Positions 3,521 through 53,480 of a stretch of 64,000 bases of DNA are shown here, in pieces. Every line of letters starts with the position of its first letter. Positions within the stretch are counted from its first letter, which is position 1. The translations under genes were made by a program, and so were the position numbers. The notes under the pieces were generated by a model, which was not told the DNA's origin, searched no databases, and was given only the letters and a program-made list of their open reading frames with translations. The stretch comes from Diphasiastrum complanatum (taxonomy: Eukaryota > Streptophyta > Lycopodiopsida > Lycopodiales > Lycopodiaceae), in assembly GCA_029204225.1 (NCBI GenBank), contig CM055102.1, positions 3,404,827 through 3,468,826 of the forward strand. Reading direction: 5' to 3'.

Positions 3521-3899
3521 CCTGGAGCTGCTGTTAGTCATGTCCTTAGAGGCTTTTCGGGGGCCTCCTCTACCCTCTCACACCTCCTCCGCTAGCTGTG
3601 AACAATCCAAGCACAAGAAAATGCAGAAAACAAGACAACTGCTACCCAAAATCCACCTAAAAGGCAAAAACAGCTAACTAGTTAGTGAAACCTCTCCCCG
3701 GCAACAACGTTACTGTAGGGCATGTAGATATAGTCTATGAGCAGCCTTTCTCCTCTCTTGTTCAAAGAATTTGCAAAGCAATTCTGAACATGTCATGATT
3801 TGATGACGTTGATGACTTTCTACTCATCAATCATCTAATTTTCTCTTCTTGTATGAACTTGCATGCTTTTCTAAACTTTTGGTATTGTGTGGGACTTTG

Positions 3900-5965
3900 T
3901 TATATTTCAAATCTGACTCTGGTGTAGAACCACTGAAACAATTGACAAATGTAGTTTCATTTTTCATTGGTTTCCTCCATGTTGTGTATTTCGATTAAAT
4001 GCTGCTCGTGGCTTGCCAGTGTGACTTCTCCATCCCTTGTGATGACCATACACTCAAGCTTCCATATGTATTTGCAAAAAATGTTGTATGATCTCTTAGT
4101 ATGTGCTGCATATGTCAAAATCATAATGTTAGTCTTATGTTTGGATCTAAATATATATGAAATTTGAAAGCATTTTGAAAATTTTATACTAACCATGTAA
4201 GAGTGATGTGATCTTCTCTCCATGCTTTTGATACTGCATTAACAAACTCGAAACAAGTCCTTTGGACAGCTTTCTTATCAATATCAGAGTATTTTTCTTT
4301 TCTTAAATAGCAATCATACTATCAAGCTTTTTCCATACATCAACTTTTAGTACTCTGGTTTTTGCCGTCTTTCTCGAAGTCCTGAGTGGGAGCAATAATA
4401 TCTGTCCAGAATGAGTGTTGAATATTAGAAGCCTTACCAGTATGATTTGATAGAAAATGACGTGCTTTTGCTCCTCCTATGCTTGGCTTAGTTGGCATGT
4501 TCTCATTCTTTCCTGAAAGCTTTTCATCTTTTTGAATTTTGACATGTTCTTTATAGAGTCCTGCTTTTGATAAAACATCTTCTAATCGAGAGATAGCTTC
4601 CTTGCTAATGATGTTGGCTTAGTATTCCAAGCAAAAACTATATGAAGATAAATGATCTTTTCTATTAATCTAACTTTTGCATGAAGAGTGCAAACATGCA
4701 CATTTTTTAAGGGGATAGGCAGCACAGGCTTCCAGTTTGGATCTGCATATTCTCTAGTAATTCCAGTACTCCTAGTTACATCTTTTGTCATTTTCATGCA
4801 GTACAAACAAGGGTGTTTTGATGTAGCACCGTGAGAGACATTATACATAGATTTCGATGTTTTCAAATCACCTACTAAGTACCATTCAACATTGAAGTCT
4901 CCAACTCCTGGAACATTGAGAAGTCCTCCATCCCTATGGTCCTTGATGATCCTAGGATAAGATGTCCTTGAAAATATCCATGATAATATATCATGATCCT
5001 CTTTCAGCACCTGTCCAAAGAATTAATCAAACTTAGTTTACAATGTATTAATACTATTCGATGAATGTAATGTAATAATGAGGCTAGTTCCCTGAAACGC
5101 TGCCAACCACCATATATCATTTTCTGACTGGACACTGAATCTGAAATCTTCTTGGTTCTCTGTCTGTGATAGAGCACCATTCATGAGAGTTACACTAACC
5201 TCTCCATCTTCTGCCCTTTCACAATTTCTGACTCATCTAGCTTAAGTACTATGATTATTTTGCCATTCACCTTTTCATAGTTTGATGAATTATAGAATAT
5301 CGATCTTCCATCATTTTCATATACCTCCTCAACATGAAATGGAGTTCCAGTGATCTTATGCATACTTATGTTTAATGTATCCCTCTCTTTCTTCAAGTGA
5401 TATGTCCTAGGGATTGGGACTTTTTTAATTTGAACTTGCTTAAAAGCTTCTCTAATTAGTTTAAATATTGTTGCATATGCTTCCCTACTAATACCTACAA
5501 AATCACAAGCACCCTGAACTATAGTCTTATCTAAAAAATTTTAAATGTCCACCATCAAAGACTCTGCTATTTTACACTTTACATTTGAAATCCTATTGTT
5601 CATCATGACACGCTCAGTAGATTTGCAAGTCGATATTGTGCCCAATGACATTCCTAGTGAAGCATTGTCTTTAATATTCCGAGGAGTTACTAATGCAGAT
5701 CTGCAAAAAAAACAAATAGTTAACGGAAAAATCACCATAGCCGAAGCTTCTTACTTTCAGCCTTCTTCTTTGCCAAATCCACATCCTTCAATAATTGTAA
5801 GTTTTCAATATGAATAGACTGTAAGAATGATTGCATTTGCTCTAGTTCTAATTTGATATTGATTGTTATCTTCTGTAATGATTCATTATTTTTTTTAAGT
5901 TGTTCATTTTCTTCTAACGTCTTTTGGAGATGACAATCTCTATTTTGACAATAAGAGGACATTCG
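3900..5965 (-). pseudogene. DDE-transposase-like gene, copy 1 (decayed)
   Basis: Reading the minus strand from about 5,962 gives a coiled-coil stretch, then ACDFVGISREAY (about 5,510-5,475), then VLKLDESEIVKG (putative first catalytic Asp at 5,235-5,237) and VTLMN. A probable intron follows near 5,010-5,110. Next come VEWYLVGDLKT (putative second Asp, 4,867-4,869) and C-x2-C 20 residues later. Further on are LSGK, GGAKARHFLSNHTG, an intron ending in CAG near 4,116, and YGSLSVWSSQGMEKSH (putative Glu, 4,028-4,030). TQHGG and FQWFY close the reading. It is broken by a stop at 5,541-5,543 and frameshifts near 4,620, 4,345, 4,310 and 3,990. Every block matches the plus-strand copy at 49.1-51.0 kb. 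Function as a cut-and-paste transposase, probably of a RAG1/Transib-like or related C-x2-C superfamily, is inference. I cannot exclude another DDE family. Confidence 0.75.
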
Positions 5966-6008
5966 AATTAAGTCACCTTCTAAAAAGTGGAACTTTATTC
6001 ATATGAAG

Positions 6009-6294
6009 TTATTTTCCATGGTTCTGCAATCTTTCACAATATCCTAATAATCCACTATGCCCATTGCATATCCATGTAACTAAATGAGTTATTGAAGAGA
6101 ATGTGGAATGTGTCAAAGTGCTTGGATCTTGTGGATATAATGTTCCATCTATCCATAAATCCAAGTTTTTTTCCTTCTGCCCTATAACGAGAACGATCCT
6201 CAATAGATATTTGAATTCCTTTGCCTCCTCTTCTCTGCAAAGGTGCCAAATCAATAGGGATATCCACATGTAGATGATATAATGTCATCATCAA
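6009..6294 (-). pseudogene. Possible upstream exon of the 3.9-6.0 kb gene
   Basis: Two overlapping minus frames stay open here and read a segment rich in R, G, D and E (RRGGKGIQISIEDRSRYRAE). It lies just upstream of the coiled-coil part of the transposase-like gene, in the same direction. The sequence weakly resembles the SGGSREDRTERR segment at about 52,320-52,350 on the plus strand. A frame change near 6,150 would be needed to read through. I do not recognise a domain. Confidence 0.3.
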
Positions 6295-6299
6295 AAGAA

Positions 6300-6885
6300 T
6301 AATAGAGTAATCAGTTGCATCAAAGTACTATGACCAGATTCTATGAAGCAAAACAAAATACTCATCTTTGATTATATTATATACTATGTACGATCAATCC
6401 AATCTCCATGCTTGTATGCTTGATTCAATTTGGAAATGCCGCTCATTTTTTCATTCCAATAGGCAGTTGGCGCTCATATTTCCATTCTTGTGGAAGGAAT
6501 GCATATGTAAACATTTTGCAATTTTTCCTAATTTGAATTTGGGGATGGCGGTCATATTCTAGATCCAGTGAAAATATTGCCCTTTTCGTAACCAATGGAG
6601 GGAATATTTTTGAATTTAGTCAAGTTATACTATGAACTGTTAACAGTTCTTAACTGTGACTATAGACACTATGGGTAGATCATTGGGAGTTGGGGAGGCC
6701 TGGGAGTGGTGTGGGCAAGCAAATAAACAATATTGTTTTTTTTATTTTGATATTTCTTTATATCCTACATGGCATTCCTTAAAGGGTCTTTTTGATATTG
6801 AGAACTACTCTAATGCATGGCTTGGATCCATCTATCCTTTTTTGGACTTTCAATCACCTCCTCAAATATCTGTGGTTCGCCACTG
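6300..6885. other. AT-rich spacer
   Basis: No recognisable coding sequence or repeat boundary was found. Short open frames here show no family features. Confidence 0.45.
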
Positions 6886-6889
6886 AACC

Positions 6890-8005
6890 CGCAGGATTCT
6901 TCTGATGTAAAAGATGAGCTACCTGGCACTATATCTTGCTGGCGCCCTTTGTGGTTTTGTCGACCTTCTGAGAGATCCTCCTGGAACAACTATGCCTTTG
7001 CCCTTGTCTGCTCTGCACGGTCCGCAACCATCTTGTTTACAGGAACTGCTGGGGGCAGGTTTGCCTCTCGAATCTTTCGTCGTCAGATTTGTTGTTCGAA
7101 TGGGAGACAACTTGAAAATCTTTGTTTTCGTGTTCGTCTGCTGCTCCCTCTGTCACTAGCGGCAGGTCATAGTACGGTCTCTCCAGAACTTCGTTAGCTG
7201 ACAGGATCTTCGTTGGCCATAGTCCTGTTCTTGTCAAATTTGACATCCCTCACTGTTTTCTCAGTGTTCGTGTCTGGCATGTAGACTTTGTAGTATGACA
7301 AATTGTTGTCATAACCTACCAGAAATTTTTGCTCAGCTTTCTCATCAAGCTTCTTTCAAAGCTTATCAAGAATATGTGCATATGTTGCACAGCCAAAGAT
7401 TCCGACGTGAGACAAGTTGGGCTTTCTACCCCACCATAGCTCATGTGGTGTCGTGTGAGGAATGTACCTGAGAATACATTTAGTAGACTTCCAGTGTGCT
7501 TGACTGGTATCACTCCAAATCCTTTCACATGTAGCAATTGGCCATTAGCTTGTCCAACTTCATTGCCATTGTGAATTTTCTTGAATTTTGAAAAGCACTC
7601 CTTCCTCGAAGTCATGTGCTTGGACGCTCCACTGTCGATGTACCAACTATCCTTGGCTTCATCACTTGTCATTAGTGCCATAATGAACAAGTTTGAACTC
7701 TCACCTGCATCATCCTTGTATTGATCATCATCAAATTGATGTTGAATCAACATAATTGCTTACCTGCCATTTGCCTTTCTGCTAACCAGGTTTGTTGCAA
7801 TATTGGCAATTCTCAGGTTTCTTTTGCCTTGGATTGCCACATCCTTGACCTCGACCTCGACCTTGATGCCAGTTGCCTCAATTTGGGCCATCATTTGATT
7901 GTTCTTGGAATTGTTGGAATGATCCACGATCTGAGTTTCTACTCTTGATTGGTGTCTTCCACGACCAAAACCTGCCACCACATATGACTCTGAAACAACC
8001 TAAAA
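6890..8005 (-). pseudogene. Ty1/copia gag-protease-integrase remnant
   Basis: On the minus strand the order is a basic gag tail with a zinc knuckle core (CQYCNKPG, about 7,790-7,815), the aspartic protease signature WYIDSGASKHMT (about 7,620-7,655), then a jump to the end of the integrase. That end reads HELWWGRKP and a FLVGYDNN block just downstream (about 7,300-7,440). The integrase catalytic core and GAG-pre-integrase region between protease and the WGRKP block are missing, so a large internal deletion has occurred. The frame also shifts at the junction. The segment down to 6,890 looks like the variable linker that precedes reverse transcriptase. Confidence 0.85.
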
Positions 8006-8119: not shown

Positions 8120-8940
8120 ATGCTACAAAGTTGCAATTCTCTATTACTAACAAATTTGGAATGGAACTTCCAACCTCCAGGGTCTAGTGGTTCTCTTGAG
8201 CCCTAGAATCATAGCCATTAAATATAAGCTATAATCATGGCTACATTGTTGCAACTTTTGTCAAAATCTCACGGTGTCTAGTTCAAGGTCTCAAAATTGC
8301 TAGATCAATCCAACAAAGGAAAATGAATTAAAATTTGTATGGGAATTGACACAAAGTAATAGATAAGTATTTCCTTTCTCTCCTTTGTTGCCTCAATACT
8401 GGCTCATCACATAAAGACATCACGAATATAGAGTAGCTTGGCTGCAATGCTCTTATGTCAACTGAATAACCTTTACTTAAAATTCTTGTGCCCTTTTGTA
8501 AAAAAATGAAGGTCATTTAAGTTGTTTTTATGAAGTTGAAGTTTTACGACATGGCAAAGTGAAATTTGCATTTCAAAGCATTTGTGAAGGTCCAACCTTT
8601 TAGTTTAGACTTCAACCTTTTGTAAAATCAGGTCTAATCTTATATGCAAATTTTAGCCTTCAAAGCCTTTATGTAATATGGAGGACTTCAACTTTGCAAC
8701 CAACTTTGGTGGTAGTCTGTGGATTAATGTGAATACTATCGTGAGTAGCTGTTAGATTCCCCATCATCGATCCGGTCATTGCTAAGACACAATCAGGTGA
8801 TGAACGCTACATCACCGCCCATCCATAAAGGTACTACGACCTCTCCCCTATGCACTGGAGCTATAGACCACCATCAAGCAAGCTCGGATCTCCAATAAGC
8901 CATGTTGTCCAATACCACCAATCTCGACCCTTGCCTACCT
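8120..8940. other. Spacer without recognised genes
   Basis: Low-complexity, AT-rich sequence containing a few near-duplicates of TTCAACCTTTTG around 8,600-8,640. Nothing coding was recognised. Confidence 0.4.
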
Positions 8941-9238
8941 TGTTAGATTAAGTAAGCCCAAGTTTATTTACGGTTACGTTTATGTGATAGTTTGCATGTG
9001 TGCCAGTTTGACGACACATACTGAGTAGAGTCGGGACACGTGTCTCGTAACGGGGACCCATAACACCATGCAACGGTACCCCCCAAAAAATAAGATGGTA
9101 TATATGTACCTTTCAGTTCTTTGGTGAATACAGTTTATACAACAATCTCTTGGGTTGTGGGATGATCTCTTTTTTAGTTTATCTGTGTGTTCATTGGTTG
9201 CAAATTAGCCAGCTACACTGCTAGTAAGATCCTTGACA
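8941..9238 (+). mobile_element. Ty1/copia-type LTR
   Basis: The 298-bp segment begins TGTTAGATTAAG and ends CTTGACA immediately before a perfect plant primer-binding site. It contains a TATATATGTACC promoter-like box near 9,100. Start TG, end CA and the abutting PBS define the LTR. No partner LTR is visible, and the following 1.2 kb holds no coding sequence, so only the 5' end of an element is left. Confidence 0.75.
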
Positions 9239-9251
9239 TGGTATCAGAGCC
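9239..9251 (+). other. Primer-binding site (initiator tRNA-Met type)
   Basis: TGGTATCAGAGCC is the usual plant LTR-retrotransposon PBS, complementary to the 3' end of initiator tRNA-Met. It directly follows the LTR end. Confidence 0.9.
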
Positions 9252-10410
9252 TCGAGGTTGGGAGTGGAGCAGTTTCAGGTTAGCTGGGAGCCAAATTCTA
9301 GGAGAATTCAAAGAAACAGTTAGACAAGCAAGAAAATCAGTTAGCATGTGTGTATGAATTGTTTCTTTTGGATAGACTATTGGCTTGAATTGGTTGTGAA
9401 ACCGGGAATTGCTAAAAAAATTTAGCTTGTTGAAGCATCATAGTGTTGCCAATAAAAGCAGGTGGTTTGCAATCATTGGTAAAAAAAAAATGCCCGAGGA
9501 AGTAGCAACAACCCTGTGCTGGGGTAAAGCTCATGGAGATCCACCTCTATATACATAATCCAAGTGGGGTCATCTCCGACCATAGGAGTCACACATGACC
9601 AGCGACACTCATCAGTGGTGCACACTAACGCGACCCTATAACAAAGGGTCATTTTGCACCAATAGGACACTGACAAGTGGCACCCAAAAGACCTATAGCT
9701 CCAGACCAACGTTCTGCCTCACAAATGAGACCGTCACCTCAGGTAACCCGTTGCGTGCCCTTATGGGTACGTAACAGTAGCACCATTGTATATTGCAATT
9801 TCCTTTACATTTGTTTTGTGCTTAACAAGTTGCCATTTGTTGTTGTTTGACATAACCCATTGATTTATATGGTGTCCTGAAGGACTATTGTGTTGCATGA
9901 AATTATTGATTGTGATTTAAGGGGAAGATTCGCCCCTAAAATCCAATTTTTATCTGTTGAATGTGTTTTTGAGGGTTTACACATGTCATAGACAGTCAAG
10001 TAACAAGTAGATACATCCAATTTCATGAGAATGCTCTAGAGAATGCAATTCAAGAGGAGAAGTTGTAGTATGGTGAGTCGTAACTATGGTCACTTGACAC
10101 TTTCCTTAGTCAATTATTGATATTGTCACCATTTATCATACAGTCTCAATTTTCAAACATCCAAGAACTTCCAAAAATTGTAAACAGTAAAGTTACAAAC
10201 TATAGATCTTACTACTTAGTACTTACAAGTTACAAGTTACAACTTACAAATTACAATGCACTGACCACTAACCACTTGGAAGTTGGCACTAAGTTATGAC
10301 TTCTAAGTAGTAAGTAGTAAGTTCTAACTAGTAACAATTTACAAATCAATGAATCACAAATTACAATTCAAGAGTCAAAAGTTTAAACTTTAAAGTTTAA
10401 AGATTGGGAA
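9252..10410. other. Leader/spacer with short ACTTACAAGTTACAA repeats
   Basis: No gag gene follows the PBS. Between about 10,200 and 10,350 the sequence is built of short imperfect repeats of TACAAGTTACAA and TAAGTAGTAAG. Confidence 0.45.
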
Positions 10411-30012: not shown

Positions 30013-31321
30013 GTACAGGGAGTGTACACAGTACAGCATCGCCGTTGAAGAGAGCTTCGGGAGAACTGTCTTCTGAGAGTTCGGGGTTTACGGCGGGTTG
30101 AAGATGGAAAGAGAAGCACTAGTGCACGGTATCTAGTTTATAGAGGCTTGATAAGCTCAACAGAGGGACTATTAGCCTGTGCATAGCATCAGACAAGGAA
30201 AAATTTGGTGAAAATTGACAATTTTGAAGCCAACTGAAAATTGAAATCGAGTTTGGGGTTAGGTTTTTTTATACATAACTGGTGATTTTTTCGCTGTTTG
30301 TGCACCGTTTTAGATGTCGTAAGGACAGGAAGGAAGCTAATCACATTGTCAACCAGCCATGGAGAGATTCTGAGGTTTATGTCAGAGATTTGTCTCCAGA
30401 TAGTTAACCTAGCAGATTTACGGTAAAAGGTGAAAAAAGCCACTTTGTCAAGTTGAGCTAAAATCACCGTTTCTCCATAGAATTTCTTGAGTGAACACTC
30501 TACAGACTTGGAATCAGTAGGGCGACCCTGCTTCAGGCCTCAGATCGTGCCCAAATCGATCCATAGGCGAGTTAGATCAAACAAAAACGAGTGTGGGGAG
30601 GCACGGCCGCAGACAGGGAGGTTGCGGACTGTTCGCGCGTGGAACCAAGGTGAGAGCATAGCGTTTCGGAGTGGGTAGTGCTTACAAGACTCTCCATTAG
30701 TGCACAAGAGTGGTTAGATCCGTTGGATAGAGAAGCTACAAGATCGACGGCTCAGATTGTGCTACCCAGAAGGGATATCCACAATTGGATTAGATTCAAC
30801 CATTGGATGGAGTCTGAAGGGTTGTTGAAGAGGGCCCTGAAGAAGTGAAGTGCATTTTAGCCTTCAACTTCATTAAAAAATCTCATACTGAAATTGGAAT
30901 TGGGTCCCTTCACAAGTGAAGAGTGAAGTTTCTTCAAGGTGAAGAAACAGTTCAAAAACTAGAAAAGTCCCTATTTTTGGGTCCTTTGCCCGTTTTGACC
31001 CAAACGAAAGGCTATAACCTCCAAACGAAGGGCACCCAGATTGTACCTGCAAGTACGGTACAGCAAAACAGAGTGATTGCAGCAGAGAAAGTGTTCAGAG
31101 TATGGCAGAAGTGATTTCACCATTCCACTGGACACGTTGTTGGGAGTTGACGACTGAGTGCATTTCGGAAGGTGACGCCGATTTGGCTTTCAAATTGGTG
31201 GAAAAGCAGTGAGTGGCCTGGTAAGGGAAAAAGTGCAGGTCATTATTCTCAACTTCTGACATCACTGTTGGCCTCGGCATACTGTTCTTAGCCTAAGGCA
31301 AAAATTTCAAGCAGTTTTGCA
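30013..31321 (+). other. Leader region of the complete copia element
   Basis: About 1.3 kb between PBS and the gag start codon. Open frames are short and show no family features. This would be the untranslated leader with packaging signals, by position only. Confidence 0.6.
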
Positions 31322-32167
31322 ATGGCAAACATGGGAGAGTCCATTTTGAGTGAAAGTAGCAAATGGGACGGGATTTCCAACTATGCAGTGTGGAAATTCA
31401 AAATGAAAAATATATTGATGGAGAAAGACGTGTGGGAAGTCGTCACAGGTGATGAGAGAAGGCCGCCAAATGAAACAGATATCAAAGTGTTCGACAAAAA
31501 GATGAGGAAAGCTTTGACCTTCATTAACTTGTCAGTGAAGGATCACATCATTACCCACATTTGTGATGCTGTTACACCCAGACAGGCATGGGATGTGTTA
31601 AAGGAGCAGTTCGAGACGTCAAATCCGTCAACAATCATGTTTCTGAAGTCAAAGTTGAATAGTGCCTGCATGGAACAAGGAGAGCACATTCAGACATACA
31701 TGACCAGAATCAAGACAATGAGAGATGAACTGCATTCTATTGGTGAGCGCATATGTGATGTGGAGCTGGTGCACAATGCATTTTGCGGCATTGCAGAACC
31801 CTATCAGATGTTTGTGAGCGGAATAGCATCAAGAGAAAGATTGCCAACCTTTGACGAGCTCACAGGAATCTTGATGCAGGAAGAGCAATGCAGAGAAATG
31901 GTGAAAGCTAGACGTCAAAATACTGACGATCAGGCACTTGCGACATGCGAAAAACAAGGCAAGGTCAAGGGCAAGAAGAAGTCTAAGCAGCAATTTGCCA
32001 AGTCTCAAGAGGACGAGGGATCTTCCAATAAAACTAAGAAGAAAGGCAAGTGCTTCCATTGTGGTAAAAAGGGCCATTGGAAGAGTGAATGTCGCAAATT
32101 TCTGGCGGAACAAGGCAAGGAAAAACCAAAACAAGCAGGTAACCTTGTCGATGAGGGTGATGATTGA
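31322..32167 (+). CDS. Gag of the complete copia element
   Basis: ATG at 31,322 opens an intact 281-codon frame. The N-terminal half carries the copia gag signature (NYAVWKFKMKNILMEKDVW, then ITHICDAVTPRQAWDVLKEQ). The middle reads KSKLNSACMEQGEHIQTYM and a LVHNAFCGIAEPY block. A Lys-rich stretch then leads into the zinc knuckle CFHCGKKGHWKSEC (C-x2-C-x4-H-x4-C) near residues 243-256. Gag forms the cytoplasmic particle and binds element RNA. The frame ends in TGA at 32,165-32,167, just where pol starts in the +1 frame. This is the only undamaged retroelement gene in the window. Confidence 0.93.
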   Translation: MANMGESILSESSKWDGISNYAVWKFKMKNILMEKDVWEVVTGDERRPPNETDIKVFDKKMRKALTFINLSVKDHIITHICDAVTPRQAWDVLKEQFETSNPSTIMFLKSKLNSACMEQGEHIQTYMTRIKTMRDELHSIGERICDVELVHNAFCGIAEPYQMFVSGIASRERLPTFDELTGILMQEEQCREMVKARRQNTDDQALATCEKQGKVKGKKKSKQQFAKSQEDEGSSNKTKKKGKCFHCGKKGHWKSECRKFLAEQGKEKPKQAGNLVDEGDD

Positions 32168-33839
32168 AGACTCTAGTATCTTCATATCTGCATTGTCATC
32201 TAATCAAGATGATCAAGCATGGTATATTGACTCGGGAGCCACAAGACACATGACAGGTAACAAGAATTGGTTCAGTAGTTTGAAGGTGTTGGATAATGGA
32301 ACATCTGTTTCACAAGCAAATGGTGAGGTGTGCAAGATCAAGGGGATGGACACCGTTTCAATCCAACTACTTGATGGCAAAAGCAGGATGATCAGGGAGG
32401 TACTTTACGTACCAGGTTTGAAGAAAAATCTACTTTCTGTTGGAGTCATTACTAATCAAAAGTTGAAAGTAGAACTCGACCATGATCGTTGCTTTGTGAA
32501 GGATGTGAACCAAAAGTTCAAAGTTATTGCGGATGGAGTAAGAGAGCCCAATACAAAATTGTATAGGTCGAATGCTACATTCAAGGGGCAACATGGACTT
32601 GTATCGTCCATTCCATCGCAAACTAAGTTGTGGCATAAGAGGCTTGGTCACTTGAACTTGGGAAGCCTCAGTTTGATGAGAAAATTGGAGATGGTAATGG
32701 GATTGCCTACCATAGAAAATCACTTAAAATCGATGTGCGAATCTTGTGTATATGGGAAGCAGCATCGAGAGAAGATCAATAAAGGGGGTGCTGCAAGAGC
32801 AAAGAACATCTTGGATTTAATTCACACAGATTTATGCGGGCCTATGAGGACCATGTCCTTAGGTAAAGCCTTCTATTTCATGACCTTTATTGATGATATG
32901 TCACGTAAGACGTGGATCTACTTCTTGAAGAAGAAATCAGATGCATTTGATAACTTCAAGAGCTTCAAAGCATTGGTCGAAATTCAGACAGGTAGGAAGA
33001 TCAAAGTCCTAAGATCAGATAGTGGAGATGAGTACAAGTCTATTGACTTCAATGATCTTTGTGATCAATGTGGGATTAAAAGACAATTTACGCAAGCTCA
33101 TACTCCTGCTCTCAATTGTGTAGCTGAGCGCAAGAATCGTACGATTGTGAAAAGTGCCAGATCTATGGTAGCTGAGATGAAACTACCAAAAGATTTTTGG
33201 TCAGAAGCATGTAGCACGGCAGTCTATCTTCAAAATAGAAGTCCTACCATTGCCATACCAAATATAACACCTGAGGAAGCATTCACGAAGAAGAAGCCAA
33301 AGGTGAACCACTTGCGAATCTTTGGATGTAAGGCCTTTGTACACATTCCTAAGGAAGAGAGGCATAAACTTGATGTAAAAGCTATCAAGTGCATATTCCT
33401 AGGATATGATGATCGTGTGAAGGGCTATAGATGTTTTGATCCAATGGAAAACAAAATCCATATAAGCCGTGATGTTATCTTTGATGAATCCAAGATGTAT
33501 GAAGACAAGGATGCTGAGAAGATAGACACATCCAATGGGAAAGATGGTATAGTGAGGATACCACCTGATGATGATCCATTCATTGACCTTCCGAGTGATG
33601 AACATGAGGATACATCTCAAGATACTACTACTCAACCTCAAGAGACAGGTTGGAGAGGTAGGGACAAACCTTTTGGTGCAAGAAGGATTGAAGTTGCAGG
33701 TGACAAACGTAAGGAGAAAGATCTACCGTGGGATACATTTTCACCAGGAAGCCGATCACCTGACAGGAAGCTCCCTAAGTGGTTTGAGAGATTGTTGGAG
33801 AGCTGCGACATAGATGACTTTCCAGGATCATCTAGCTAG
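32150..33839 (+). pseudogene. Copia pol, part 1: protease and integrase
   Basis: The frame is +1 relative to gag and overlaps it. It encodes the aspartic protease active site WYIDSGATRHMT (about 32,220-32,255) and the LLSVG linker. The integrase zinc finger has H-x4-H in WHKRLGHLN and C-x2-C in CESCVYG. The catalytic core follows: Asp in IHTDLCGPM, Asp in LRSDSGDEY, Glu in VAERKNRTI. The C-terminal region reads LRIFGCKAFVHIP and FLGYD. All three catalytic residues are present. The frame stops at 33,839 before RT, whereas family polyproteins continue. There is no separate start codon with good support, so expression would need a frameshift, or the offset is a mutation. Confidence 0.9.
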
Positions 33840-35463
33840 GGAGAGCTACGAAGATCAACAAGAGAGAAGACACTACCTGAAAGGTAGGAAGAAAATTATG
33901 CTCTCTTATCTAGCATTATTCAAAGCAAAGAACCTTCGACTTATGGTGAAGCGAAGGATGATGACATTTGGGTCAAGGCCATGGGAGAGGAGATGGAGTC
34001 AATTGCTAAGCATAGCACATGGAACTTAGTAGAACCACCAATTGGCAAGAAACCCATTGGTTGCAAATGGGTATACAGGACTAAGTACCATGCAGATGGA
34101 AGTATAGCAAAACACAAGGCAAGATTGGTGATCAAAGGGTACGCATAAAATAAAGGCATCGACTATGAGGAGACCTTTGCGCCGATTTGTAAGTGGAATG
34201 CTCTGCGTCTACTTGTTGCTTTAACTTCACATTTTGGTTGGCCTTTGCATCAGATGGATGTGAAATTTGATTTTCTAAATGGTGAGCTAGAAGAAGAAGT
34301 GTTCATGGATCAACCTGAAGGCTTTGTAACGAAGGGACAGGAAAATAAAGTATGTCGCTTGAAGAAAGCGCTTTATGGTCTTAAACAAGCACCACGTGCG
34401 TGGTATAGCAGGATTGATGCCTACTTTCGTTCAATGGGGATAGTGAGAACACATTCTGATCCAAATCTTTATGTCTTATGCTTTGATGGTATGGTTGTTT
34501 TAATTGCTCTTTATGTTGATGACTTGATTATTACGGGAAATAATCAAGATATGATAGACATGTTCAAGAAAGACCTCATGGAACAATTCAAGATGACAGA
34601 TCTCAGTCTGATGCATTACTGCCTTGGAGTAGAAGTGTGGCAAAAAGGACATGAAGTGGGTTTAACACAGGTGAAGTATGTCAAAGAGTTGCTGCACAGG
34701 TTTAGGTTGCAGGATTGCAAACCAGTAAACACTCCTATTGAACCAGGTAAAAAGCTTTCTAAGCTTGATGAGTCACAGTCATTTGATGTTACGCTGTATA
34801 GACAGTTAGTAGGGAGCTTGATTTACCTTACCATGACTAGACCAGATATATGCTATGTTGTTGGCATTGTAAGTCAGTTTATGGCAGCACCTACGGAAAC
34901 GCATTGGAAGGCAACTAAACGCATTTTGCGCTATGTGAAAGGCACTTCAGAGTATGGCTTGATTTACAGGAAGCATGATGGTTTACCTGAGTTGTGTGGG
35001 TATGTGGATGCGGATTGGGGAGGTGACTATGATGATTGTAGATCTACCACGGGGTATGTATTCTAGTTTTGTGGTAGTTGCTTCTCCTAGTCTAGTAAGA
35101 AGCAAAGTACAATTGCTCTTTCCACCACATAAGCATAGTATAAGGCAATGTGTAGTGCAGCACAAAAAGCTATATGGTTGAGACAAATCTTGGAAGTAAA
35201 TTGGCATGAAGCAGAAAAATCCCACGACTTTACATAGCGACAATCAGATTGGCATTCAGCTAGCAAAGAATCTAGTGTTCCATGCGAGAACTAAACACAT
35301 TGAGATTCAGTATCACTTTATACGTGAGAGGCTGCTAAGTCGTGAAATTCATGTTGTTCATTGTAGCACAGAAGAACAACTAGCTGATATTTTCACTAAG
35401 CCACTTACTGGAGAAAAGTTTGATAAGTTTAGATCAAAGCTTTCTGTACTTAAAGTTTGTTGA
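33840..35463 (+). pseudogene. Copia pol, part 2: reverse transcriptase and RNase H
   Basis: RT starts at about 33,960 (DIWVKAMGEEMESI, GCKWVYRTKYHADG). It is broken by TAA at 34,147-34,149 where GYAQ is expected, a CAA to TAA change. The intact run 34,245-35,066 includes MDVKFDFLNGELEE, LYGLKQAPRAWY and the catalytic YVDDLIITG. RNase H follows: YVDADWGGDYDDCRSTTGY then stops at 35,064, 35,088 and the TEAEY position. A frameshift leads to the last open part, 35,206-35,463, ending HARTKHIEIQYHF and LADIFTKPL. Several of the stops replace Gln or Trp codons, as expected from C-to-T decay of methylated DNA. Confidence 0.9.
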
Positions 35464-42164: not shown

Positions 42165-42690
42165 AAGATATGCATTCATCGCTTTACCTTTTTTCAGTCT
42201 GTTGTAGCTGCATGCATCATACTGCAGTTATCTTTTGATATAGAGTATTAGCTCCCACTAGTTCATCTTTCTGGGTTTTGCTGTTGAAAGCTTTAATTGC
42301 ATTCATCTGTGTGGCAAAATATCACATGCATCATATTGCATTCATCATCTGATAGAGTATTCGTCATCCTGGGCTTTGCTACTGAAAGGTTTGATTGCAT
42401 TCATCTCTCTGTGTCAAATAATACGCATGCATTATACTCCAGCTTCTCTGCTGAAAACATTCATCTGTAGCAAAATATAGACATACATCATACTGCATTC
42501 ATCCTTTGATCGATCACTAGCACCAGCTCTCACTTATTCATCACTGTTGGTTTGCTACTGAAAACATTCATCTGTAGCAAAATATAGACATGCATCATAC
42601 TGCATTCATCCTTTGATCGATCACTAGCTCCCACTTAGTCATCATCTTTGGGCTTTCTACTGAAAGCATTTATTGCGTCCATCTCTCTCT
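42165..42690 (+). repeat. Tandem repeat upstream of the DUF630/632 gene
   Basis: The motif (C)TGAAA(A/G)...ATTCATCT recurs at about 42,283, 42,382, 42,451, 42,558 and 42,660. The copies at 42,451 and 42,558 match over about 70 bases (CATTCATCTGTAGCAAAATA ... GATCGATCACTAGC), a period near 107 bp. It lies just 5' of the coding start, in the likely untranslated leader or core promoter. Confidence 0.8.
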
Positions 42691-42702
42691 CTCTCTCTCT
42701 CT
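42684..42702 (+). repeat. (CT)n tract in the leader
   Basis: About nine CT dinucleotides 70-90 bp before the start codon, common in plant 5' leaders. Confidence 0.85.
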
Positions 42703-42738
42703 CCCCCTGGCCAAAAATACAGAGACAGCAGATTGTTG

Positions 42739-42795
42739 ATGAGACAGCAGCTGGTGACGCAGAAACGGGGATGGGTTGCGGAGTCTCCAAAGTAG
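42739..42795 (+). promoter_or_regulatory. Upstream ORF overlapping the main start codon
   Basis: ATG at 42,739 opens an 18-codon frame that ends in TAG at 42,793-42,795, past the main ATG at 42,771 and in a different frame. If the transcript includes it, ribosomes starting here would bypass the main start. Confidence 0.5.
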
Positions 42796-45700
42796 AAAAT
42801 GAAGAGACTGTCTCGAGATGCAAAGTAAGAGAGCGCTTCATGAAGCAGGCGGTGGCATCGAGACAAGCGCTAGCTGCAGCCCACATTGCCTACATACACT
42901 CTCTTAAGAACATTGGCGCAGCATTTCGGCAGTTTGCAGAATCAAACATCCAAGCGCCCATTATCTCTCTGCCCAAAACCTCCTCCCAGCCTATGCCACC
43001 TCCACCCCCTTTATTCCTCCTCCATCCTTCCCCACCCGGCTCCATCCACCGCTCTCTTAGCCTCCCACCTCACATCCTTCACAACGGAAGCGATTCTCCT
43101 GATAACACTAATAAGCCGCTGTCGCCCCGGGATAGTCTTCCAGAAGAGGAAGACGACCATGACGGAAAGGAATATCTATATGGAGATGCGCAACCTCCAC
43201 CTCCGCCTCCACTTCTAGGTGTTGCAGCTCCCCCTCCTCCCCCAGCTCCTAGATCCTTTACCTGGGATTTCACAGACTTCTTCCACACAGCAGACCCCTC
43301 CTTGCAGCTGCAGGAGATGAGGAAGAGTAAGCAAATGCTGGAAGAAGAACATAATGGAACAGTTGATTACAGTCTTCCAGATAATGAGATGTATCAGGAA
43401 GAACAGGCAGAGAATGGTGGATACGGAAGCAGCCCTGACAATGCAATTGTGAAAAATCAAGTTGTGAATGAACTGATGTGCCTGGACAGGAGGGAGCTGG
43501 CTCTAGTGCCATCTTTGAGAACAGGGGATGAGCTGGTGGATGTGCTGAGGGCAGTGGACGACTGGTTCTTGAGGGCTTATGAGAGTGGCAAGGAAGTTGG
43601 GCGAATGCTGGAGGCTCTCAAAATTCACTACCACTCCAACTTTCTGGATCCAAAAGGTCTATATTGTAACCTGACTGAAGACTGACGTTAAGCTCAATTT
43701 CAAATTTATTTTGTTCTGTTTTGCTGCAGCACTACATTGTGCTTGCATTCTCTGGATGTTGGAAGTGCTTTGTAATTAAGCCTATGTCTGAATGCAAGAG
43801 GTGAATCCCATATGCTTTTTGAGGATGCTACTCTGAGCCATTCAGGTTCTGTACAGTAATTCTATCTTCTTTTTGCAATTCAGGATGAGATAGAAACGTT
43901 AGGCAATCTGGTTTGCAGATTATAAAACAAATTCAGACGTCAATTTTTTTGAATGGTCAAATTTCAAGCAGCAACTTGCATGCTTTGGAACGTAAGGTGT
44001 TTATAACTGAGCAAGCCAAAAAGTTTCCTGTTCTTTGCTAACTTTTGACCGAAGAGAGAAAGGGTTGTTGACATTCGTTGCAAGAATCACTTTTTTTAGT
44101 AAGGACCTTATTTTTAAGTGCCTGTCGCCCACAGAAGCAGCAAAGAAAGTTCCATCTTCTATATTACTTGAGCTGCTTATTAGTTAAACAAAAATATCAA
44201 GATCACGGTAAAACTTAGAAATTTTGCTACTCATTTTACTTTACTTGCAACGAAATATTGTTACATAATATACCGTTTTGAGCTACGTCTCTGTATCCTG
44301 CTCTCCCCCTTTGTTTTTTATTCTTGAAGTCTCTACTCTAATCATAGGCATACACTCTATCCTCTTCTACTGGATTAGTTACATGTCTTATTCACTCACT
44401 GCACAGCTCCCTTTTCCCATTTCTGTACCTGCTCTAACTAGTTTTGCCAATCCATTATTGCCAGGCTATAGCAAGTCAGTTGTCCACTTCATCACCATAA
44501 CTGAATCTCATTGAAAAGCTAGCATCTATTAATATGTTTTTCCTATTAAATCAAATGCTAGATAGATACAACTATTCAAAGGCAAAACAAATTCTGTATA
44601 TTCAATTTCTGTACTTGAACTTCATTTGAGTCTTCTGATGTAGGTAGGCCACCTCTACTTTTACTTAATTTTCTTTGAAATTTTTCCCTGGCTTATCTTG
44701 CAGAATATTCTGACCATACGAGCAGTAAGAGGTTCAGCACTATATCCTTGCGCCACTGGTCTTCTCAATCACAGAGGATGACTACTCCTCTAAAGGGTAC
44801 GGCTGAAGATATTGAAGGGCGTGGAATGGCTGGGAGTCATGCATCAACACTTGATCAGCTCTTTGCATGGGAGAAGAAACTCTATGAGGAAGTCAAGGTA
44901 CTGTTTAATTAGACTTTAGTTTTGTCCAGGTATATTTGCCATTTTCATCAAACTGGGGGTAAAAGAATAAAGTCAAGTTGATTGCAAGTGCAGAATTTCA
45001 GCTGAACAGAGATCCTTGTTTGAGGAAATCACAACAGTCATGATCTTTATGTTTTACCAAGAAGGACGAAATTGTTATGAGTTGTCTCAATCTCTGAGGC
45101 TTATATATGGATGTTAGAATTGTGCTTATCTACTGCACACCAAGTCCCTTCTGTGCTATTAGTTATTCAGAACAGTGGGGTGCCTGGTGAATATTGCTTT
45201 CTCCTTTAGTTGAAAGTGTTTGTAGGAATCGATTGATTCTATTTGCTCATTTATCACTGCTTGACCAAGTACTCCCTTTAGCTGTGGACTTTTTCTGCCA
45301 GTTAAGCTTGATAGAACCAAACTTGTAGAGCAGTTGATGAGTTTTACATATTGAGTTGTAAGTAGTTTTAGCATGATATCTCTGTTGAGTTCCAAACTCC
45401 TGACATGACCATATCTGGTTTTTGAATTGACTTGAGTATGTTCCAGAGAGCAGAAACCTTTCGGATTGAATATGAAAGACAATGCGCTTTATTAAGAAGG
45501 AAAAATACCAGGGGTGTAGGAAATGAGTCAATTGAAAAGACACGGGCAGCCATCAAATCTTTGCAAACAAGAATAGCAATAGCTCTCCAAGCTGTTGATA
45601 CAGCTGCGGCAGCAATACAAAAGCTGAGAGATAATGAGCTCTATCCCCAACTGCTTAAATTGCTACAAGGGTATGTTCCAAAGGTTTCTGTTTGCATGCA

Positions 45701-46682
45701 ACTTAGAAATATGAAAAGCACTTGATCTTCAAGTCTGCAACTTTTGAATTGATGCATTCTAGAGTGTCTCTCTGGTTAACATAAGATTTCACGTTGTGAG
45801 AGTAAGTGCTCCTGGAATGGATTGCTTAGCAGCTTCTTAAAATAGGCCGTGAGTCTAATAGTTGTTCTTTGCAGATTGACTTCTATGTGGAAAGACATGT
45901 ATGATTGTCATCAAAGGCAGAGAAGAATTGTGCTGGAAATGAAGACCCTTGAAGAGCTAGAAAGTGCAGATGGAACAAGTAATCTGCACAGGCAAGCAAC
46001 CTCTGAACTTGAATCGTCACTTACAAACTGGTATAATTCATTTAACAAGGCAATCAATGTGCAAAAAGAATACTTGCTAAATATTAATTCCTGGCTGAGG
46101 CTCAGCATACTACCTCTTGAAATAGAATTCGGGGACAGGTTGTCTTCACCTGTCAGGAATGTTACTCCTCCAATCTACTATCTTTGTATAGAGTGGCAAC
46201 AAGCACTTGAGAGATTGCCAGACCAGGTAGCCTCGGAGGCTATCAAAAGTTTTGCAGCTGTGATAAGGGACATTGTTGACTTGCAGTCAGATGAGGTTCG
46301 GCACAGGAAGAAAGTGGAAGTTCTGTCCAAAGAATTGCAAAAAAAAGTAGCGGCATTACAGAACTATGAGAGGCGGCATGTTGATGAGGTTTCTTTACCA
46401 GATGAACATATTGAGCCGGTCACTGCTATAGTACCTTATAAAAGTCCACATAGTACCCAAAAGGCTGCAATTGATGCACTTCAGAGAAAACTTGAGGAGG
46501 AAAATGAAAAAATGAAGAAGGCCATTCAAGGTGCTAGGGCAATGACTATAAATAGTTTCCAAACTGGTTTGCCAAGCATATTCCAAGCCGTGACGGGTTT
46601 TGCTCATGTATGCTGCCAGACTTACCAGGGGCTATACAATCAGGTCAACAGTGGTCAGTTTCTCAGATTAACAAATCAGTGA
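42771..46682 (+). CDS. DUF630/DUF632 protein (REL2/NRG2-like), 4 exons
   Basis: Exons: 42,771-43,656, 44,704-44,897, 45,447-45,670 and 45,875-46,682. All introns are GT..AG and phases agree, giving 704 codons including the stop. The start MGCGVSKVENEETVSRCKVR is the DUF630 N-terminus with Gly2 for N-myristoylation and Cys3 for palmitoylation, so membrane association is likely. ALAAAHIAYIHSLKNIGAA completes that domain. A Pro-rich, acidic middle follows (residues about 75-200). DUF632 begins at DDWFLRAYESGKEVGRMLEA and spans exons 2-4: STLDQLFAWEKKLYEEVK, LQTRIAIALQAVDTAAAAI, LTSMWKDMYDCHQ and PPIYYLCIEWQQAL. Coiled-coil stretches lie in exon 4. Plant relatives act in leaf development and nitrate signalling; the role here is inferred. 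No stops or frameshifts were found. It is the one intact host gene in the window. Confidence 0.93.
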
Positions 46683-49060: not shown

Positions 49061-49084
49061 CAGATTAGTTATAGACGACTTGCT

Positions 49085-51013
49085 ACCAGGTTTCAACCGA
49101 ATCTAAATGCTAGAGAAATAGTTTATGCATGTGATCAAGGAGGTGTGAGTCGAAAAGGATATAGAGCATTGAAAAAATTTATGAAAAAATCTGACCGAAA
49201 CGACATCAAATATTATCTGCTTACAAATTGCTTCAAACTACAAAGCGAGAATGCAATTTATTTATAGAAAATGAATTAGGTGAATTCTTCCATATTCAGG
49301 ATACTTTTAAGATATCCAGCAAGCAAAAGGGATATATTGTTCGTTTTCATTATAACCAATACAACAATATATTTTTGGATCTGGAAAAGGTCCAAGCAAT
49401 GATGATACGACATTACAATGTCAAAAGAGATGGTGAGTTCGTTTCACAACAATTTCAATTATTATTTTTCTACTTTTTATAAGCAACAATTATTGTATGT
49501 TATTTACAAGAATTTGGTATTGCAGATATTGGAGGCAAAGCTATATTTGTCATTAAGTTGGATGAAGCGAAGATCGTAAAAGGTTGCAAACTAGAACGTG
49601 TCACAATCACGTTGATGAACCAAACATTGCAGGAGTCAACTGGAAGTGAGTCCAATAAATTTAGTGTGCAAAATGGTGGATAGCTACATTCGAAGTTCAT
49701 AAAGAGACCCACGATGTGTTGAAGTGGGTATTTGAACGATGCAATATATCCAAGGTAATACAAGCACAAAATGGAGGACAATTGCTAAGTGTTGATGGCC
49801 AAAATTTTACTGTGGAATGGCACTTAGCTGCCGATTTGAAGACCCTAAACTGCATGTTTGGTTGCGGGCTCGGTGCAAATGCCAAACATTTTTGCATATA
49901 TTGTATGTTTGAAAGTGGCCGAAATAAAGGTGTGTTGCATTGCAACCAACGAGTTCCACCAAACAGGCACAATCTAGACAGAGCATGGAGTCCCGTATTA
50001 GAGATTCCTCTCGAAAGAGTCCTTTTTTGCACGATGCATGGTGAATTGCAGATATTGGACAAGTTGTTATATTTGCATTGTTGCTATGCATGGAATATGC
50101 AACCCAAATCACGCGCGGATGTTAGCGTTCGAAATCTAGAGGTAGTGTTATCAGAAATGGGACTTCACGGAGGCCATGTGAATCTTTCCAAGGACGTTGA
50201 GTTGAGTGGAAAAACTCGAGACTTGCCGGTAAAAGTTTCCATGGGGGGCGCAAAAGCAAGGCTTTTCTTGTCGAATCATACTGGATGAGAAAGTAGTCTT
50301 CAATGGGAGTATTGGAAGAGTGAGTGTGAATGCACAACAAATATTGGCTTGGATCCGCGTATGGCTGCCACACGTGCAAAGGTGTGGCAAGCATTTGATG
50401 CTTTGTCACTGACTATCAATAAAAAAACTTGAGGGAGGAAGATTATGATAGATATCAGACGGAAGTACAAGCATTCACTCGATTGATGATTGATGCATGG
50501 GGAGAAACACACATCACTCATTATATGGTCAGTGTTTTGTCTTTATTTTTTTCTTTGTAAGTTCTATCCAAGTGAAATGTACTAATTAGATTCTTTTGCA
50601 AACAACACATTTTGTACGTTCATGGACCTTGGTTTTTAAAGACATATGGATCATTGGCTATTTGGAATACCCAAGGGATGGAGAAGAGTCATTACAGGGC
50701 CAAGGCTGCGTATTTTCAAAAATTCAAGACATGGTGAAGCTAAAGGTCTTAGCAATGCCTTGGTAGAGATATTTCAGTGGTTTTATAGAGGAGTTTTGAG
50801 CAGACAAAAGGGGAATTAACACGGGCTCGAGGGTTGACTTCAATGATCTCTTCATCAAATTTAGCCAGAAGAGCCGCTTGGAAGTCATCCACAGCTAATG
50901 CAAGGCATAGGGAATGGAGGATGTCTCGGGTTCGTGTAGAGAAGCGGTGGGTTCCTCGGCAAAGAACATCCAATGAAGAGGATGGCATTTCAGAAATAGC
51001 ACACAATGAATAA
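49085..51013 (+). pseudogene. DDE-transposase-like gene, copy 2
   Basis: Reading order: CDQGGVSRKGYRALKKFM (49,130), ENELGEFFHIQDTFK, intron 49,433-49,526 (GTGAGT..TTGCAG), and GGKAIFVIKLDEAKIVKG (putative Asp1, 49,561-49,563). VTITLMN and a W.ATF segment follow, then VEWHLAADLKT (putative Asp2, 49,833-49,835) with C-x2-C (CIYC) 20 residues later. Next come W.PVLEIPL..V.FCTMHGE, LDKLLYLH..YAWN and GGAKARLFLSNHTG, then AWGETHITHYM and an intron from 50,528. The end reads YGSLAIWNTQGMEKSH (putative Glu, 50,681-50,683), RHGEAKGLSNALVEIFQWFY and a basic C-terminus stopping at 51,011-51,013. Frameshifts occur near 49,215, 49,685, 50,285, 50,430 and 50,730. All blocks align with copy 1 at 3.9-6.0 kb. 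Transposase function is inferred from the D-D-E/C-x2-C layout. Confidence 0.75.
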
Positions 51014-51246
51014 ATATAATCTATTGAGAATATTACATTGTTTTGAAGTATAGTGGTATAATCCATTTGATTATTATAAATAGACTTTATTTGATACAAT
51101 ATTAAAATCATGTCTATTTTTGAAAAACTTTTTCCTATATAAGACCACTTTATCTCATTTTCTCTCTTGGCTTTCTTAGTTTCGGTAAATGCTTTGCACT
51201 TGCGCTCGTACTAATAGTCTTTCGTATTGTCTCATTACGTTCACGA

Positions 51247-52714
51247 TGCATCCTTCGAAGACAAAGTTGGCAAATCTATTGGTCGACACAACATTTACTG
51301 ATCAAATAGATCGCATCTATGCTATATTCACTGCCAGAATAGATACCCTAGCAACTCTACGTGCGAATAGTGATGATTTCAGGTATGTAAGTGAGTATAT
51401 AGAAGAGAACTTGATGCCTTACTCAGTAAGAATACCTGGCTACGATATTTCTTGGATTCCATATAATTTGCTAACATATATATAGAAAGGAGATAGAGCT
51501 TTTGCTGCCCGACTCAACAGGTTTGTTAGCCACCAGGGGAACGAGCACTTTTTGGAGTTAACGCGCGATCAACAAGTAAATTTTAATCTCAAAAGTGTAG
51601 GAAACAAGTTCTTGTCAGGTGACATTAGTGTAATTTTTTTGTTGAATGAATTTCCTACACATACCGCTGAAGAAAAACAAGATCCTAGCGTGAACGTCAG
51701 CGAAATGGAAGAGCAAGAAGCAAAAGAGGAATTAACACCCGTGAAGGAAGCAGAGCTTGCACGACAGATGGCTTTAGTTGCATCAACATCTGCCCAACCG
51801 GAGGACATAGACGACTCCGATCACATGATGCGAATACGTGACCTTGCCCCAGTGATAATTAATGGGCAAGAGTGTTTGTTTCTGCATGACTTGCAACATA
51901 TCCTCGGCTTACGAGAGGATGAGATGTTGGCAAGATTAGTGAAATTGCAAAATGGCACCAACACCTTTGACCACTCAGTGCCAGACGATCATTTCGACAG
52001 CTGATTGGAGATGACGCAGATACTACTAAGCAAGCTTTGGAAAAAATTTTGTGTGAACTGAAGACTCTGCAACCATCGGAGGTTGAGTATAAACAATTTG
52101 GGAAATCACCAATTTCCACAACTGAGATGCCATACAGAGGCCATGGAATTGTGCTTGCAAAAAGTGAGAATGAGGATGAAGGATCTCAGGCAAGTTCTTT
52201 GTCAACAAATACTCTTGTCCATGCTTATTCCCATTTATGAATCTGTTCATTGTAATTATAACATTCTTATATAATATATTGCAGTATGCGGTGGAGATTG
52301 ACAGTTTTGCAATGAGGAGCGGAGGTTCTCGTGAGGACCGAACAGAGCGAAGGCCAGATGCATCCCTGACATACTACATTGGACAATTCCATGGCAATTA
52401 TATCTTCTGTTTCAGCAATGAGTATAGTCCTAATGGGCCCACTGAGTTGGTCAAGTGCAAAACATTATCAAAGCATTTTGCAACTGGTCCACTTCCACAG
52501 ACTGCACCAAAGGCCTAATGTGTACGAAGGAGCGCTATCTTGTAGGACTTTTGCCCGGGGTTTGAGTCCAGATTACTTCTGGCCTCAGCGGTTGGACCTT
52601 ATGAGGAGCATGCTGATGCTGCTAAGTTAGCATCGGAGTTAATGAAGCCAACAATAGGACTAGAAAATAGATCAGAGTCACTACTGGAAGCACTGGCTAA
52701 TGTAAAAGAATTTT
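51247..52714 (+). pseudogene. Unrecognised ORF region downstream of copy 2
   Basis: Three open plus stretches follow the transposase-like gene. 51,247-51,485 reads MHPSKTKLANLLVDTTFTDQ and ends at a stop. 51,490-52,004 is acidic (NEFPTHTAEEKQDPSV, LHDLQHILGLREDEMLARL). From about 52,285 it reads VEIDSFAMRSGGSREDRTER then TYYIGQFHGN and NEYSPNGPTELVKCKTLSKH, ending near 52,714 with a Glu/Ala/Leu-rich helix. An intron-like interval lies near 52,210-52,284. I recognise no domain. It could be a second gene of the same element, a fused host gene or another element. Confidence 0.4.
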
Positions 52715-52719
52715 AAAGG

Positions 52720-53480
52720 AAAATTGATTTTTTTTTCAAAAATATGTCAGTTCAAACTGCATGCGTTCGAAAATTTTATTCATTATGGTAGGTTATGAAA
52801 ATTTCTACCAATCATCTAAATTTAAGGGCATTAAAGTGCCAATTTGAACTTCAAACGACCCCCCTCCGTGCCCTTGCGTCATTTGCACGCAAGGGCGCGG
52901 ATTGGGGCCATTTGACTCGGTCAAACTCCCTCTGTCCGCGCCCTTGTGTGATTGTGTCATGATTTGGTTGTCACATAGATTTCAATAGAAACAGATATGA
53001 GATGATGAGGAGAAGATAGGAGATTTGGAACGAGACCTAGAATGATGTGGAAAGTGGTAAGATGTATTGGTTAGAGCTCAAAACTTGGAAGGTAAAGAAT
53101 AGTGTTGGCATTTTACTTCATATTTTTGAGTGCATTAAATCATGCAAAGCAATTTATTCCTATGAAAATTATGGTTTCAACTTTGTGAGTGAGTTGATTT
53201 ATGAAAAAAGACACTACAATAAAATGTAAAGTAGATTGTCATTTTTGAACGTGACACATAGTAAATTGTAAGTAAAATTATCATTTGTGAAAATGTCATG
53301 TAACAAATTGTTAAATCTAGAAGTTCATAAAACTTTTTAAAAGTAGTTTATAGCTCATAAAATGTTCATAAAATATATCTAACATTATTACACCTCATAA
53401 AAAAAATTTAAAATCTATGGGCCATAAAAATACTTTTAGCCATAATGTAAAATGCCAATACAATCATTTATGCCTGGGAA
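52720..53480. other. Spacer with a GC-rich hairpin at 52,870-52,896
   Basis: GCCCTTGCGT and ACGCAAGGGC form a perfect 10-bp-arm hairpin, with a further CGCGCCCTTGTGTG copy near 52,938. The block is GC-rich within AT-rich sequence. No coding signal was seen. Confidence 0.6.

Follow-up and report, generated by a model that had tools for sequence, protein, structure and literature searches.

The DNA analysed here, a 64,000-nucleotide stretch of the Diphasiastrum complanatum genome (the window; C11:3404827-3468826), probably contains the defunct copy of a CMCT-clade DNA transposon of the cut-and-paste type, with a transposase of RAG1-like layout and ends that would be joined to the target with zero stagger. 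According to PMC12730594, this clade comprises CACTA, Mirage, Chapaev and Transib plus RAG1, Plavaka, ESTA and Lanisha; it is marked by C(2)C, H(3-4)H, mostly CA..TG termini and a target-site duplication (TSD) of 2-5 bp, and it is already known in plants, CACTA/EnSpm being included. The initial annotation had placed an unusual DDE-transposase-like protein at 49085-51013. Its four motifs, KLDE, DLKT, CIYC and QGMEKSH, are all present there on the + strand. They lie in different frames. The interval itself was incomplete: the motifs are inside it, but the fragment of the element, which belongs to a group of copies termed family A, covers ~49073-52953 and carries a second gene (Table 1).

Blastn matches of the fragment started at 49073-49092 (L009, L010 and L016) and ended at 52953 (L010) or 52703 (L009). 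The fragment is truncated at its 5' side, where it adjoins a Copia gag fragment at ~49073 (Retrotran_gag_2, E 2.9e-14), and also at its 3' side. No family-A TIR was found within the window at ≤8 mismatches. Gene 1, the transposase gene, is decayed: it has frameshifts and one in-frame stop, and its intron-2 acceptor is non-canonical. Its two introns were inferred from aligned copies. Gene 2 is 53-54% identical to gene 2 of c22, a full-length family-A element (tblastn). GC-rich repeats near the 3' limit of the fragment (~52840-52953) resemble the 70-bp units of a tandem array within another family-A element (L011 1809-2032).

The window also contains part of a family-B relative. This copy carries a decayed transposase gene and adjoins Copia sequence, with Pol_BBD at 7319-7759. 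Two further features were recorded between the family-B and family-A copies. A Copia-type retrotransposon was recognised by ORF reading at 31292-35066 (+), with a gag-like ORF of 291 aa and pol ORFs of 644 + 305 aa. A segment of a gene for DUF632, a plant family, is located at 45846-46682 (+; Pfam E 3.4e-40), and what may be the 5' portion of this gene was read at 42639-43685.

Table 1 Transposon features of the window. A1 and A2 are the transposase alignments described in the text.
Feature	Position	Strand	Evidence
Family-A transposon fragment	49073-52953	+	blastn vs L009, L010, L016
Gene 1, decayed transposase	49073-51013	+	copy alignment, tblastn with spliced c22 read
Gene 1, exon 1 tail	49073-49425	+	alignment of copies
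Gene 1, exon 2	49525-50527	+	alignment of copies
Gene 1, exon 3	50606-50974, ORF to 51013	+	alignment of copies
Putative catalytic Asp 1 (KLDEA)	49561-49563	+	motif; invariant in A1
Putative catalytic Asp 2 (AADLKT)	49833-49835	+	motif; alignments A1, A2
Predicted C-x2-C zinc pair (CIYC)	49893-49904	+	motif; A1
H(4)H pair (HILYVH), 20 residues ahead of Glu	50606-50623	+	motif; A1
Putative catalytic Glu (QGMEKSH)	50681-50683	+	motif; A1, A2
Gene 2	51246-52713; blocks 51246-52193, 52288-52713	+	tblastn; in-frame stop
5' part of family-B transposon	3747-6815	-	~94% identity to L027
Family-B copy TIR (CATTAG...)	6784-6815	-	TIR search
Family-B putative catalytic Asp 1 (KLDESEIVKG)	5235-5237	-	motif
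Family-B putative catalytic Asp 2 (VGDLKT), then CLYC	4867-4869	-	motif
Family-B putative catalytic Glu (SSQGMEKSHW)	4028-4030	-	motif

Further copies were searched for in the 1.745-Gb assembly. A 207-aa core gave at least 150 genomic matches at 74-100% identity (150 scored among 9538 first-look candidates, a figure that counts the window and a duplicate contig). Many of the scored matches had no stop, and the motif set is therefore not a product of chance. For family B, at least 150 matches were scored among 9407 first-look candidates. Two short contigs, L002 (C3478) and L004 (C4479), repeat the match of a chromosome locus; because of such redundant contigs, all copy counts from the assembly are inflated. 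A third, decayed group (the C-group; L085 and L087) was recovered through a motif pattern, which performed barely better than its control (113 vs 92 matches). Six pattern matches were examined, four of them related (one weakly) and two showing no relation. Among the 61 and 68 pattern stretches from viral contigs and prokaryote genomes, respectively, there was no confirmed relative. Transposase_21 matches were dense at C1:48.58-50.20 Mb, which suggests a local EnSpm cluster.

Comparison of the copies with each other delimited full-length elements of 8.6 kb in family A (c22) and 9.5 kb in family B (b17). The TIRs measure 37 bp in A and 35 bp in B, with CATTAG..CTAATG common to both, and the family-A TIR could self-fold into a 12-bp stem. 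The element ends, CATTAGGG and CATTAGAG, are unlike the RSS heptamer, CACAGTG. At ≤3 mismatches, the genome contains 1828 TIR sites of family A and 2378 of family B, while the reversed patterns gave 0. Short family-A copies have facing TIRs 1.0 and 1.1 kb apart (C4:15745948 and C1:67871296).

Each full-length element has three genes, the first encoding the transposase. Gene 2 lies on the same strand as gene 1 in family A and on the opposite strand in family B. Its homology between the families is weak, with one tblastn block (E 8.9e-4) and an hhalign alignment that is collinear but scores within the shuffles (17.6 vs up to 19.8). Gene 3, near the right end on the minus strand, is clearly common to both families (E 5e-13 and 2e-19). 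Pfam searches with segments from genes 2 and 3 gave no match above the cut-off. Gene 3 gave nothing convincing in the PDB, with a best E of 0.15 for its first part and no match at E ≤5 for its second part. A BAH domain in gene 3, an idea from reading the sequence, was supported by neither Pfam nor PDB searches and was dropped. Between genes 2 and 3 of c22 (L016/L018 joined, oriented), a low-complexity stretch at 8578-9335 reads as a long polyproline.

The spliced transposase read of c22 has 841 aa and includes D376, D471, E728, CIYC and HIFYAH. This read uses c22's own non-canonical intron-2 acceptor, and no copy was established as intact in all exons and splice sites; a normal acceptor is present in L011, L013, L014 and L015. 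The first and second Asp (D1 and D2) are 95 residues apart and D2 and Glu 257, where the initial annotation had estimated ~91 and ~250, and C-x2-C starts 20 residues after D2. In alignment A1 (four rows from the two families, ~44% identity between families), D1, D2, C-x2-C, H(4)H and Glu are invariant, the two His being H339 and H344. Alignment A2 has six rows; D1 lies outside the two from the C-group, and the second Cys is the same in all six. The decayed L085 row is without the first Cys and has an X over the first His. Between family-A subgroups (c22-L010), dN/dS was 0.158; for near copies it was 0.299, and the comparison of families A and B (c22-b17) gave 0.175 with saturated dS. As judged from these sequences, the putative catalytic residues are conserved under purifying selection. 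AlphaFold2, run on a three-row alignment of window rows, gave a pLDDT of 31.

Insertion sites were compared with paralogous empty sites. The ends of 16 family-A elements (7 + 9), some of them short copies, were retrieved. Both were located in ten elements, seven of which have an empty site (E1, i, p1, p2, p3, c and f). Five of these seven comparisons show 0 bp at the junction. The first two right-flank bases of E1 differ from the empty site, yet the coordinates are contiguous. One extra bp is present in p3 and two in c, the latter at 75% identity only. The family-B case is b17, whose flanks, once joined, align over the whole length of 120-bp sites (up to 98%). Taking both families together, a paralogous empty site exists for eight insertions; six of them have no TSD, and the other two have 1 and 2 bp. 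This count leaves out b and g (no empty site), c22 and c12, and six elements with no second end (C1:94409889, C3:936475, C3:455755, d, e and h). Element a has its left flank in a family-B copy and a right flank unmatched in the loci compared; it was excluded, as no single site unites the two flanks. A 3-bp TSD in one short copy, deduced from match lengths, was discarded, as base-level alignment puts the gap elsewhere. The insertions of c (C7, 3' end ~10826398) and f (C9, 3' end ~48942113) map to copies of a single host repeat, at points ~120 bp from each other.

Target preference was weak. Over 66 element ends, not all of them independent (L088 and L089 have an identical flank), T was present at -4 in 44%, A/T at -3 in 80% and T at -1 in 41%, and A at -3, -2 and -1 in merely 39, 30 and 20%. 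Among the papers listed in the literature searched, which left out Repbase Reports and most subscription journals, there was no TSD-free CMCT element of plants.

The resemblance to RAG1 lies foremost in the spacing of the putative active site. From D2 through the two Cys and two His to Glu, the intervals are 20, 3, 209, 5 and 20 residues in c22 vs 19, 3, 207, 5 and 20 in mouse RAG1, so that D471, C491, C494, H703, H708 and E728 match RAG1 D708, C727, C730, H937, H942 and E962. The second zinc pair, H(4)H, is exactly 20 residues ahead of the catalytic Glu in both proteins. The D1-D2 interval is shorter than the 108 residues between D600, the first catalytic Asp of mouse RAG1, and D708.

A PDB search with a single sequence returned nothing at E ≤10. 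With a profile, RAG1 ranked second, behind Utp10, at a non-significant E of 0.28; with a wider profile, it ranked first, again non-significantly (E 0.63). Utp10 (7suk, E 0.018) was absent with the wider profile and was therefore judged a chance helical match. RAG1 was the sole recombinase in both profile searches at E ≤10, and the solved Transib transposase, 6pqn, was absent from both at this threshold. The hAT, Kolobok and Dada families, which the initial annotation had listed as alternatives, were dropped: there was no Pfam match above the cut-off, and the profile searches of the PDB returned none of them and no other transposase at E ≤10.

Compared directly with RAG1, the A1 and A2 profiles scored 11.6 bits each, where the best of 5000 shuffles reached 9.4 and 8.0. 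Hhalign scores were 35.2 for A1 and 34.5 for A2; against A2, the best of 300 shuffles reached 30.7 and reversed RAG1 18.0. The profile alignment also pairs the motif M-x-G-x2-A-R-x-L. These tests are not independent of the RAG1 hypothesis, since it arose from inspecting the same sequence. EnSpm segments of the same genome, as far as reported (7 with A1 and 6 with A2, of 11 given), all scored <0 bits. The accepted relation between RAG1 and EnSpm went likewise undetected by profile score and hhalign, so the silence towards EnSpm is weak evidence and does not discriminate. The RAG1-like character noted initially thus stands, with a layout that includes H(4)H and a RAG1 score above every shuffle. 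To call the protein a RAG1/Transib transposase in a plant was too specific, because its features mark the broader CMCT clade, which plants were already known to have. From sequence comparison, these features fit the CMCT clade rather than Transib itself.

Lanisha is said to have been described by Maumus, McDaniel and Carey from a moss. That the family is a new member of this superfamily, proposed in Repbase Reports 2020, and thus of something already named, has in our view somewhat less than an even chance. PMC12730594 counts Lanisha among the CMCT lineages, notes its similarity to EnSpm and refers to Maumus, McDaniel and Carey 2020; the comparison made here is one of description. A true plant Transib, within the RAG1/Transib superfamily, would account for the RAG1-like spacing and for RAG1 as the only recombinase match in the PDB. 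Transib-like proteins of plants have also been reported (PMC9435367). This assignment is nevertheless improbable, given TSDs of mostly 0 bp instead of 5 bp, ends that read CATTAG and are not CACAGTG-like, and the absence of 6pqn from the PDB matches at E ≤10; PF12940 was unmatched in the genome too, although its control was likewise unmatched anywhere, which makes that result uninformative. We give equally little credence to a divergent CACTA/EnSpm element. C(2)C and H(3)H are common to EnSpm, and EnSpm is abundant in this genome, but the transposase has no Pfam match to Transposase_21 or DUF4218. CACTA/EnSpm elements have CACTA ends and a TSD of 2-3 bp, and the family differs in both. The reported EnSpm segments scored below zero against 11.6 bits for RAG1, with the caveat that the RAG1-EnSpm relation was itself undetected.

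The absence of TSDs could also have a non-transpositional origin, if end joining had built excised or broken copies into double-strand breaks of the host. Most sites without a TSD, two with 1-2 extra bp and a target preference that is only weak would all agree with such capture. It would, however, be expected to trim the ends and leave filler DNA, and the insertions tested extend to identical outermost bases at both termini; thousands of TIR sites in two diverged families also argue against it. Capture at breaks therefore seems a poor explanation. A more far-reaching proposal, which we regard as rather unlikely, is that the family represents a superfamily of land plants whose sister is the RAG1/Transib branch and not CACTA, and which has kept the RAG1 geometry of active site and zinc site but integrates by blunt, zero-stagger and TSD-free joining with the help of two private accessory proteins.

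For the favoured reading, a CMCT-clade transposon with zero-stagger joining, the following course of events can be envisaged. The transposase would dimerise via an N-terminal coiled coil, and its N-terminal half would bind the TIRs. A zinc-stabilised DDE core would then excise the element, and the ends would be joined to the target at two phosphodiester bonds that face each other directly, that is, with zero stagger. Such joining would leave no gap to fill and hence no TSD; imprecise joining may explain the 1-2 bp cases. Genes 2 and 3 might encode accessory factors acting in chromatin, targeting or anti-silencing.

The recombination of vertebrate antibody genes arose from RAG1-like transposases. 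A plant lineage with RAG1 spacing, thousands of TIR sites and mostly TSD-free insertions would offer a natural comparison for what sets the target stagger, and it would join the few TSD-free DNA transposons, of which Spy is another. It also gives an identity to one large repeat family in the D. complanatum genome. If the land-plant superfamily proposed above were real, a RAG-type recombinase could evolve TSD-free joining inside a living transposon.

Among known systems, the family shares with the CMCT clade D-D-E with C(2)C after D2, H(4)H (HIFYAH) between D2 and Glu, and 5'-CA..TG-3' termini in both A and B. It is unlike the clade in its 0-bp TSD at six of eight sites (vs 2-5 bp) and in its two further genes with no Pfam match above the cut-off. 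RAG1 (mouse, PDB 9jpu and others) has the same D2-to-Glu spacing and collinear M-x-G-x2-A-R-x-L and IT-Y-H-AH-GS-W-G-E motifs, but overall identity is low and the match is non-significant database-wide; the element moreover has inferred introns and CATTAG ends, and no RAG2-like gene was recognised by Pfam in genes 2 and 3. Transib, RAGL and ProtoRAG elements have the same catalytic and zinc layout, and ProtoRAG has a second, convergent gene, as does family B with gene 2. They differ in their RSS-like ends and 5-bp TSD (for Transib and RAGL: PMC9435367; also PMC4411706), and gene 2 has no Pfam match above the cut-off. CACTA/EnSpm, given with CAC..GTG termini and a 3-bp TSD in PMC12730594, is unlike the family in both ends and TSD. 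Spy, of the PHIS superfamily, is like it a eukaryotic DNA transposon described as being without a TSD, but it inserts within AAATTT (PMC4482050), whereas the family has no AAATTT target and only the weak T(-4), A/T(-3), T(-1) preference. The nearest candidate, set beside the family by description alone, is Lanisha, which is likewise a CMCT lineage.
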